From IMG/VR virus record IMGVR_UViG_3300020057_001243, positions 1-49,052 of that record: a stretch of 49,052 bases of DNA; one strand, 5' to 3'. Below are positions 45,414-49,052 of the stretch, one piece after another; position 1 is the first letter of the stretch; each line of letters begins with the position of its first letter. Position numbers and translations under genes: made by a program. Source of the stretch: a virus. The notes beneath the pieces were generated by a model that was given only the letters and a program-made list of their open reading frames with translations, did no database searches and was not told the DNA's origin.

Positions 45414-46289
45414 TTAGCTTTCTCCAATATACTCATCCAATCCTTTAATTTTTTTCAATACCTGGAACTCAGATCTTTTAGATTTAAGGGCAATTTTTGC
45501 GTATAACTCGGGACCACCTTTAGGAAATCCTTTCGCAAAATCAGCTATTTCTTTCTTCGCATTCTCTTCTCGTTTGATGAACTTTTTGAGCTCGTCCTCT
45601 TTTTCCTTTTCGATTTTTCTCAAGATATTCACTCTTTCCCACCAGGAAAGGATTTGCTTGTTATAAGATTGAATTTGATCATCTGTTAGTTCAGGATATT
45701 TCTCGTTCTTATTCGCTTTTTTAATCGCTTCTAGATCACGATCTATTTGATAAAGAGTCCATTGCGGTATTGCCTCATGTATCACGTGTCTGATGGCTTT
45801 TCGCAAGTTTCGAGGATCCGTTTCAGCTTTACCTGAGGTATAGTCTCCACCTTTGTAGTTTTTGATTAAAGCTGGAATTCCCCATTCCCGAATCATTATC
45901 TCTTGGCGTTCTTCTGGCCAATAACGTTGATTAGTATCGTTGTCTCCATAGATTGCCTCGCGGTAAGTTGAATCATAATCAGATTCTAAGAAGACAACTG
46001 GAACCATGAAATTTTTTGGAAGCTTTTTCTTTTTAATCCCTTCGATAACAGCCGTCCATCGACGTCTTCCTCTTAGGATAAGTAGTTTGCCCGATTTCTT
46101 GTCTTTGTATACTAATAATGGTTTATCGCCCCAGATTCCATTTTTCCAAACTGATTCGCAGAACGACCGCCATTCTTCCTTTTGTTCTGGCGTACGAGGG
46201 GGGCGAGCTGCATTCTTTGGATCTGGTCTAAGAGATATTGCTTTCTTTTGGGTAACAACGGAGGAAATTTTTAACTTAGAATTACTCAT
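45414..46289 (-). CDS. ParB-domain protein, partition candidate
   Basis: A 291-residue protein with an N-terminal ParB/Spo0J-like domain: LLVYKDKKSGKLLILRGRRR with GRRRW at 74-78, then VPVVFLESD. The remainder is helical, with a basic coiled coil at about 220-270. No ParA gene is recognised nearby. Unlike the ParB-domain gene at 20277 it stands alone on the minus strand, as a plasmid-partition or host-control gene might. Confidence 0.7.
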   Translation of the reverse strand: MSNSKLKISSVVTQKKAISLRPDPKNAARPPRTPEQKEEWRSFCESVWKNGIWGDKPLLVYKDKKSGKLLILRGRRRWTAVIEGIKKKKLPKNFMVPVVFLESDYDSTYREAIYGDNDTNQRYWPEERQEIMIREWGIPALIKNYKGGDYTSGKAETDPRNLRKAIRHVIHEAIPQWTLYQIDRDLEAIKKANKNEKYPELTDDQIQSYNKQILSWWERVNILRKIEKEKEDELKKFIKREENAKKEIADFAKGFPKGGPELYAKIALKSKRSEFQVLKKIKGLDEYIGES

Positions 46290-46678: not shown

Positions 46679-46727
46679 ACCTGTTTTCAGGTAATTTGAG
46701 ACAAAATTTCATTTTAAATTGAAATTT
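46679..46727. promoter_or_regulatory. two inverted repeats in a divergent intergenic region
   Basis: ACCTG/CAGGT (46679-46692, 4-base loop) and AAATTTCA/TGAAATTT (46704-46711 and 46720-46727, 8-base spacer) lie between the divergent genes ending at 46637 and starting at 46742. Placement suits operators for one or both transcripts. No convincing -35/-10 pair was identified. Confidence 0.45.
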
Positions 46728-46741
46728 CCCGATAAACTAAC

Positions 46742-47017
46742 ATGAATCAAAAAAAATATGCGAACCAAACCGATGAAGACCAATTTGTTCTTACAAATGA
46801 TGCAGAAGAATACATAAAATATCGAGACATCCCTTTGTGCCAGGTATGCAATCGACTAATCTCTGATATTCAAATGTTTCGGGGAACAGGAAAACAAGGA
46901 ATTTGGTTGGATAAGGTATTTTTCCCATTTATAATTTTCGAATTCACTTGTCATGGTTCATCATTAAAATTTAAAACGTTTGGTGGAGACATTGCCAAGG
47001 TGGAAGAATCAATATGA
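46742..47017 (+). CDS. 91-residue CxxC protein paired with SIR2-like gene
   Basis: A small protein with C33-x2-C36 (CQVC) and C70-H71, a possible zinc site, a Trp-containing GTGKQGIWLDKVF segment and a beta-rich C-terminus. Its stop overlaps the SIR2-like start (ATGA), so the two are almost certainly co-translated. No family is recognised. As the partner of a SIR2-like protein it could be a sensor, activator or antitoxin-like inhibitor. Confidence 0.6.
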   Translation: MNQKKYANQTDEDQFVLTNDAEEYIKYRDIPLCQVCNRLISDIQMFRGTGKQGIWLDKVFFPFIIFEFTCHGSSLKFKTFGGDIAKVEESI

Positions 47018-48027
47018 AAACTCTATACTTGTTTGGTGCAGGTGCTAGTGCAGATGCAGTTCCAGTTGTCGGAGGTATAACTTTTTTCTGGGATAAGTAT
47101 TTCAAAAAGGAAACAGCAAAATTTCATAAAAGCGTGTATAAAAAAATTGATTCGCCTTTATTAGAAGATATAGACAAATTAATTGATGAGACTAAAGACT
47201 TCGGAACTCCAGATGTTTATGCAAAGTCAGTAGCTCTATCAAAAGGAATTTTTTCAAAAGAATATCGAATTGTTAAGACAGCTTTAAATTACTTTATAAT
47301 ATTATGCTATCTAGTAAATGAAATAGATAAAAGATATTTTTCTTTTTTTTCCGCACTTGTAGATTCAGAAAATAAAAATTCACACATATTGCATAAAGAT
47401 GTATTTATCGCAACTTGGAATTATGACTTTCAAATAACAAAATCCATTTCTATTTTGTTGAACAAAAATTTAACTGATATAAATCATTTGCTATATAATA
47501 AGTTATTTAGAATAAATGGTTACGCTGGTTCTTTGAGAGGAACCGTAGATAACAGAGAAAGTTTTCGTCTAACACAACCTGAAAATGAAAACGATAATTA
47601 TATTTTTAGATCAAGTTTTCCAGCAAGCATAGTTAAGGATATTAATGATTCATATGCTCGCATAATGGAAGATAAAAATTTAATATATCACAACATTTCC
47701 TTTGCCTGGGAACCACTAAATTTTAATTTAGAGAGACAACAGATTTTTCCTTTTCTAGATCAAATTAAAGTTTTAGTTGTAATAGGTTACTCTTTCCCAA
47801 CCTTTAATAGATTTATTGATAAAGAATTAATCTCCAAGATGATAAATCTTGAAAAAATTTACATTCAAGATCCGAGTGATAGTATTGAAAACAGAATTAT
47901 TCCATTCCTTGATATAAGAATGCCAGTCTATAAAATATCCAGGGATTCAGAACAGAAAAGTTATTACGATATTGAACATATAAAACACCCTGACCAATTC
48001 TTTATCCCTCCAGAACTCGACCAGTAG
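47014..48027 (+). CDS. SIR2-like NADase-fold protein, defence candidate
   Basis: A 337-residue protein with SIR2-like signatures: FGAGASADAVP at the N-terminus (NAD-binding loop), TWNYD at 134-138 (family form TNYD), INGYAGS with N168-G169 where many SIR2 domains have HG, and VIGYSFP with GYSFP at 258-262. Bacterial SIR2-like proteins in anti-phage systems (Thoeris ThsA, DSR, SIR2-HerA) deplete NAD. Here no HerA, TIR or APAZ partner is visible, only the small CxxC protein. The His-to-Asn position may be a family variant or may affect catalysis. Confidence 0.75.
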   Translation: MKTLYLFGAGASADAVPVVGGITFFWDKYFKKETAKFHKSVYKKIDSPLLEDIDKLIDETKDFGTPDVYAKSVALSKGIFSKEYRIVKTALNYFIILCYLVNEIDKRYFSFFSALVDSENKNSHILHKDVFIATWNYDFQITKSISILLNKNLTDINHLLYNKLFRINGYAGSLRGTVDNRESFRLTQPENENDNYIFRSSFPASIVKDINDSYARIMEDKNLIYHNISFAWEPLNFNLERQQIFPFLDQIKVLVVIGYSFPTFNRFIDKELISKMINLEKIYIQDPSDSIENRIIPFLDIRMPVYKISRDSEQKSYYDIEHIKHPDQFFIPPELDQ

Positions 48028-48042
48028 AAAATCTTTGCCCTC

Positions 48043-48162
48043 CAATATCTCTAGCTAGAGTGCGACTTTGAGGGCTTCCCAATATCGCGTACATGCACGC
48101 GACATGCCAGCTCCAATATCGCTAGCTGGAACGCGATTTCAATATCGCTAGTTAGAGTGCGA
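48043..48162. repeat. four 23-base palindromic repeat units
   Basis: Units at 48043-48065, 48080-48102, 48114-48136 and 48140-48162 each start CAATATC and end GCGA. Starts are 37, 34 and 26 bases apart. Unit 2 has perfect TCGCGT/ACGCGA arms, unit 4 has 8-base AATATCGC/GCGATATT arms, unit 3 has ATCGC/GCGAT, and unit 1 has lost the outer stem but holds CTCTAGCTAGAG, a perfect palindrome. CCAGCT/AGCTGG also pairs across units 2-3. The cluster fills most of the 48028-48326 gap; the remainder (48163-48326) shows no supported gene. Candidate iterons, parS-like sites or dispersed chromosomal repeats. Confidence 0.75.
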
Positions 48163-48326
48163 TATTATATAGAAAAGAACAATGAAAGGTACAACCTTAG
48201 TGAAAAAAGAAGAGAAGATCGCTGAATGCGATAATATAGAATTCTAGTATAAAATTCGAATTAACTAGGAAAATTGAGATTGCCGAATGTATTGATTAAG
48301 TCGAATAGTATAGAAGAGTTAAAAAT

Positions 48327-49052
48327 ATGACAATTCCAGAAGCAGAAAGGAAATCTAAGTATATTTTAGATAATTATTTATTTTCTATTTTTGCAAGAAA
48401 GGATGATTTTACAATTCATAGCCATAGACGTGAAATGCTAAAAATTGTAAATTCTGGTAAGGCGACTCCTGATGATTGGTATGCCCTTGCTATTTTAGAA
48501 TTCAATTTAGGTAACTATTCTGAGTCGATGAAAACCTTGAAAGGTTTATCTACTGTATCACCAGAGTTCCGAAATATCTATGCTTATGCTCAACTAACGC
48601 TTGTTCAAAATTCAATTTCTATTTCCAAAAGTGAATCTGCAATTTTGAATGAATTCTTTACAGGGACAAATTTAATTAAGCCAGATAAATTACTTTATCA
48701 AATGATAAAGAATTCTATTCAATCTAACAATTCTCGGTTTGGTTTGAAAAAAGATATTATTATCAAAGTTGAATATTTCAATCCTAAGAATTTTAAATTA
48801 ACGTCTGGTCCATTTGAATTTTCTGAAAATATCGAACCGTCAAATGAATTGGATCATGGATCAAACATTGGAAGTGTATTTGATTTGAATCTTCAAATCT
48901 ATATACTAAACAATGGATTAGAAGAAAAACATAGAAAGTTTTTAATTGATTATTTGGACGAAAATGAAATTGATCAACTAATTACCGAAAATACAGCAGA
49001 AGATTTAAAAACAGAACGTGACTATTCTGAATATACTCTATTGAATATTTGA
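48327..49052 (+). CDS. hypothetical protein with TPR-like N-terminal half
   Basis: A 241-residue protein. Residues about 45-105 form helix pairs (DDWYALAILEFNLGNYSESM, then EFRNIYAYAQLTLVQ) like tetratricopeptide repeats. The C-terminal half is mixed and acidic (DYLDENEIDQLITENT). It ends on the last base of the window and looks complete. Function unknown; accessory position after the palindrome cluster. Confidence 0.55.
   Translation: MTIPEAERKSKYILDNYLFSIFARKDDFTIHSHRREMLKIVNSGKATPDDWYALAILEFNLGNYSESMKTLKGLSTVSPEFRNIYAYAQLTLVQNSISISKSESAILNEFFTGTNLIKPDKLLYQMIKNSIQSNNSRFGLKKDIIIKVEYFNPKNFKLTSGPFEFSENIEPSNELDHGSNIGSVFDLNLQIYILNNGLEEKHRKFLIDYLDENEIDQLITENTAEDLKTERDYSEYTLLNI

Follow-up and report, generated by a model that had tools for sequence, protein, structure and literature searches.

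Proteins with a SIR2 domain that hydrolyze NAD+ are established anti-phage effectors (PMC7272460, PMC10781750, PMC11559045). Two well-studied SIR2 anti-phage NADases, ThsA of Thoeris and SPARSA, depend on an Asn-His dyad. Replacement of the histidine by alanine abolishes NADase activity in ThsA (H152A, PMC7272460) and in SPARSA (H186A, PMC10781750), and the ThsA substitution also disturbs oligomerization (PMC7272460). The systems SIR2-HerA (Nezha), SPARSA, Thoeris and DSR2 have as hallmarks a partner, or a long protein with an APAZ, SLOG or DSR2 C-terminal domain. None of these hallmarks was seen for the SIR2-like protein of 337 amino acids described here.

Its gene is found in IMG/VR virus record IMGVR_UViG_3300020057_001243, all 49,052 bases of which were analyzed (hereafter, the window). 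The original prediction was that this gene and a 91-codon gene immediately upstream may encode a co-translated defense pair. Both open reading frames are present, and the stop codon of the first and the start codon of the second share an ATGA (4-nucleotide overlap, 47014-47017). Features of the locus are collected in the table.

Features of the SIR2-family locus in the window (coordinates are window positions)
Feature	Coordinates	Strand	Basis or context
ParB-like protein	45414..46289	-	25-26% identity to the ParB adjoining the small-gene homologue in LE1-group phages
A+T-rich palindrome, possible operator	46704..46727		directly upstream of the small gene
91-aa protein, C33-x2-C36 and C70-H71	46742..47017	+	homologue of an unannotated ORF adjoining rep in LE1-group phages
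Predicted SIR2-fold protein, 337 aa	47014..48027	+	PADLOC SIR2 4.2e-5; AF2 pTM 0.81; sirtuin structure matches; family alignment
aatggt codons for Asn168-Gly169, at the catalytic His-Gly position of canonical SIR2	47515..47520	+	family alignment
Imperfect palindromes CAATATCGCTAGCTNGANNGCGA and variants	48040..48165		intergenic, following the SIR2 gene

We assign the window to the LE1 group of Leptospira phages because its SbcD-like protein (67% identical to that of LE1 and 78-79% to those of two IMG/VR relatives), its SbcC-like protein and another early protein (58-70% identity for these two) resemble proteins of LE1-group phages. Neither a parA P-loop nor a rep homologue was found within the 49,052 bases, and thus the record may be part of a larger phage. 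The 241-amino-acid protein encoded at its end (48327-49052) matches phrog_11524 weakly and has no match in the phage collection.

All of the motifs on which the SIR2-like assignment was originally based are present, namely GAGASADAVP (residues 8-17, with GAGAS at 8-12), TWNYD (134-138, with WNYD at 135-138), ING (167-169) and GYSFP (258-262). The catalytic-type asparagine is Asn136, Asp138 completes the N-x-D motif, and FAWE (230-233) and GYSFPTFNRFID (258-269) follow. Homologues at 17 other loci show that the gene is not a chance open reading frame. A profile search had been proposed for both proteins of the pair. For the larger one, it returned one SIR2 model from PADLOC, and several family members likewise give weak PADLOC matches to SIR2 or Aga_SIR2 (Argonaute-SIR2). 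The smaller one matched no profile in Pfam, NCBIfam, PHROGs or PADLOC. Profiles from Pfam, NCBIfam and PHROGs also failed to match the 337-residue protein at E values up to 10, and the other family members scanned have no SIR2 match in Pfam or NCBIfam (among family members, PHROGs was compared with the window protein only). Searches of PDB sequences with phmmer and profiles yielded only chance matches, mostly to ACE/ACE2 on "WNY."

Structure comparison was more informative. An AlphaFold2 model of the protein, calculated from a nine-sequence alignment, has a pLDDT of 76. Foldseek alone gave a best E value of 0.003, and clear Z-scores came only from a second structural comparison that followed it. 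The 50 entries listed, from the 1000 best Foldseek chains, are all sirtuins or SIR2 defense complexes, with Z-scores of 11.2-13.1 over 200-259 aligned residues. Together with the PADLOC match, the model and these scores support a predicted Rossmann-type sirtuin (SIR2) fold, as originally proposed, with the sirtuin match spanning the 337 residues as one domain. Among viral models, Foldseek found nothing significant; the best match was a Marseillevirus Sir2 family protein (E of 0.06).

The model has its sirtuin fold in common with SIR2-HerA and SPARSA (matches 8wld, 8w9l and 8y80, with Z-scores of about 12), and the GAGAS and N-Y-D motifs are shared. Unlike these systems, the window gene is a lone, single-domain gene; neither a partner nor a domain of the HerA, Argonaute or APAZ kind was seen, and its family carries asparagine in place of the catalytic histidine. 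The catalytic-type asparagine is also shared with ThsA, where it is Asn112. However, 337 residues make up one SIR2 domain and leave no room for SLOG, and the equivalent of ThsA His152 is Asn168, so that the histidine of the HG motif is missing from the expected dyad. No ThsB gene is seen next to the window gene, and the genes adjoining it have no profile match to HerA, Argonaute or ThsB families.

Closer relatives are encoded by the Leptospira phages vB_LbrZ_5399-LE1, Lin_34 and vB_LinZ_10-LE1, whose hypothetical protein LEP1GSC050_0068 (27% identity over 98%, with LNG) belongs to the same family. Other homologues are found in IMG/VR phages and in Bacteroidota genomes (about 5 of the 395 drawn). 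These proteins constitute a small, uncatalogued family that is spread among phages and Bacteroidota. A maximum-likelihood tree unites 17 members in one clade with support of 100/100, on a long branch apart from an outgroup of nine canonical HG-type SIR2-like proteins of Bacteroidota.

The asparagine that the original prediction had pointed out at the catalytic histidine position extends to the entire family. All 17 distinct aligned members carry it ([L/I]NG), whereas all nine outgroup proteins have HG; the outgroup motif K-(V/L)-H-G aligns onto (H/R/K/Y)-(L/I)-N-G of the family in a sequence alignment rather than in superposed coordinates. Because the asparagine is fixed in all 17 members, the alignment indicates a family-wide trait and not the decay of a single copy. 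The remainder of the site is retained. The catalytic-type asparagine of WNYD (Asn136/Asp138) is kept in 17 of 17 aligned members, and 29 columns are invariant over the 13 full-length members, including GAGAS, WNYD, NG, FxW and GYxFPxxNRxxD. Further invariant polar residues in the 13-member alignment are Asp67, Asp105, Arg107, Asn265, Arg266 and Asp269. Given that alanine mutants of the equivalent histidine inactivate ThsA and SPARSA, one cannot presume that this family hydrolyzes NAD+ through the usual dyad. One Bacteroidota copy (L048:2970-4018) is interrupted by two stop codons, one TAG and one TAA.

The small gene has a different distribution. Three relatives of its product were found: an open reading frame of LE1 and those of two LE1-group IMG/VR phages (L010 and L014/L015). 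All lie in the replication/partition region. The LE1 homologue (75 amino acids, 35-41% identity, with CxxC...CHG conserved) has been left unannotated in both LE1 records (L005:2455-2682 of NC_048892.1, and L006, AF261714.1). C33, C36 and C70, to which attention had been drawn originally, are invariant across all four known relatives, as are the overlooked H71 and other residues. These four residues suggest a zinc site, and the protein is, judging from its sequence, probably zinc-binding. Its structural model is poor (pLDDT of 52), and a fold search with it was discarded as meaningless.

CxxC...CHG proteins are encoded near rep/parB in LE1, L010 and L014/L015, and the window copy lies beside the ParB-like gene. 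The small gene of LE1 and of L014/L015 shares an ATGA with the stop codon of the helix-turn-helix gene gp03/orf5 (rep) and precedes parB. Orf5 is treated as Rep in LE1-derived vectors (PMC4338851). In L010, rep and the small gene directly flank a gene for a membrane/coiled-coil protein of 266 amino acids (L010:9357-10157), and a protein encoded at L015:8115-8924 resembles it, which may mark a site for accessory genes. The 266-residue protein matches no family, and its candidacy as an abortive-infection protein was dropped as no profile supports it.

Operator-like inverted repeats had also been noted nearby, and two are present. One (46309-46323/46334-46348; 15 nucleotides, 93%) separates the ParB-like gene from the small gene, and the other is the possible operator of the table. 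Downstream of the SIR2 gene (48042-48165), three imperfect palindromes were found where 0.04 were expected, and the region is predicted to fold strongly (z of -3.6). Palindromes of the CAATATCGCTAGCTNGANNGCGA type were found neither elsewhere in the window nor in the other loci compared.

No conserved partner gene accompanies the SIR2-family gene in any locus examined. Defense genes adjoin it directly in some loci only, as raw occurrences: AbiH at L008, AIPR/AbiU at L009 (where a zeta-toxin-like gene is also close by), a gene for a type III restriction enzyme at L056 and, at L021, a gene that matches Abi_2 weakly. Two related Bacteroidota genomes carry the SIR2-family gene as a single insertion before the same acetyl-CoA-synthetase-like gene. 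In phages, it occupies accessory positions, near a repressor-like helix-turn-helix gene (L010 and L014) or opposite in direction to the structural genes (L011 and L013). In L010 and L014, adjoining STAS-like (DUF4325) and HATPase-type genes lie between the SIR2 gene and parA (L010:6019-7252 and L014:6021-7254); LE1 carries gp80 and gp81 in their place.

The neighbors in other genomes make a defense role plausible. Together with a fold resembling that of known anti-phage NADases, they make superinfection exclusion the best reading of the window gene, although we put its chances at about even. On this reading, a temperate Leptospira phage of the LE1 group would carry the gene as a stand-alone accessory, and the product, a SIR2-fold protein with one domain from a distinct family found in phages and Bacteroidota, would shield the lysogen from other phages. 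We infer that the protein would remain inactive until triggered by an invading phage, and would then bind and deplete NAD+ or a related nucleotide through altered chemistry, at a site that keeps the catalytic asparagine of SIR2 NADases and has Asn168 in place of the histidine. The SIR2 gene would simply lie beside the 91-codon gene, which would belong to the replication/partition region of the LE1 type and encode a small protein that probably binds zinc.

If the two genes instead formed a system, the zinc-ribbon-like 91-residue protein could act on the SIR2 protein as its antitoxin, sensor or regulator. In the window, the two genes overlap at ATGA and run in the same direction, which fits this arrangement, and the phages L010 and L014 each contain both. 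In those two phages, however, 3.5-4.2 kb separates them, a stretch that includes parA and other genes. An 80-amino-acid protein with two CxxC pairs is encoded 21 nucleotides downstream of the SIR2-family gene at L007 (L007:6215-6457) and could be seen as a similar companion; it does not match the small-protein profile and is unrelated. Recurring linkage, the test proposed for the pair, was absent: a small-gene homologue is next to the SIR2-family gene at none of 17 other distinct loci, the outcome that had been named in advance as refuting the pair, in a survey that covered phage records and Bacteroidota genomes only, in which small-gene relatives were few and several loci were contig fragments (L012 holds only ~0.5 kb upstream of the SIR2 gene). 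Plasmids yielded neither gene. A 29.8-kb record, L035, was rejected as linkage evidence; its SbcD-like protein is 100% identical to that of the window, but it has neither gene, its sole match to window positions 40-49 kb is 33 bases long, and it is uninformative. The complete genome of LE1 (Saintgironsvirus) shares the small gene in its rep-parB region but lacks the SIR2 gene, whereas phages of the 5399/LinZ_10 type carry the SIR2 gene amid other neighbors and show no match to the small gene. Moreover, the small gene forms the same ATGA overlap with rep in other phages, and so this arrangement is not specific to one partner. Given the absent linkage and the overlap with rep, the adjacency in the window phage most likely reflects chance gene order. 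A two-gene system is not supported and, in our estimation, highly improbable; because SIR2 relatives occur as lone genes, the overlapping little gene probably belongs to the phage in its own right, as part of the LE1-type replication/partition region.

The universal loss of the catalytic histidine could also mean that the protein binds a nucleotide without hydrolyzing it, as a pseudo-enzyme or sensor that regulates, for example, lysogeny or superinfection, and the L010 and L014 copies near repressor-like genes would suit such a function. This reading seems rather unlikely, as GAGAS, the catalytic-type asparagine and the aspartate of NxD are invariant, and the additional invariant polar residues suit a changed enzyme at least equally well. 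The gene might otherwise serve the phage itself, through NAD metabolism in lytic growth or through counter-defense. Many phages carry it, and the L054 copy is co-directional with replication genes and a large downstream open reading frame. A role in phage growth, however, makes little sense of single insertions in bacterial genomes or of copies beside AbiH and AIPR/AbiU, and we regard it as distinctly unlikely. Lysogen defense by a lone SIR2-fold protein therefore remains our preferred reading.

The overlapping pair was tempting but misleading, as related phages have the same small gene overlapping a replication gene. What the locus reveals is a monophyletic Asn-for-His family, extending from Leptospira phages to Bacteroidota, in which the rest of the SIR2 site is kept. 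This SIR2-fold family without the catalytic histidine is probably anti-phage. Tentatively, its members may represent uncatalogued lone, phage-carried SIR2 effectors whose Asn-Asn site serves anti-phage immunity through a new reaction that consumes NAD or a nucleotide. Whether SIR2 immunity requires the histidine, or a different reaction has arisen, becomes directly testable with this family.
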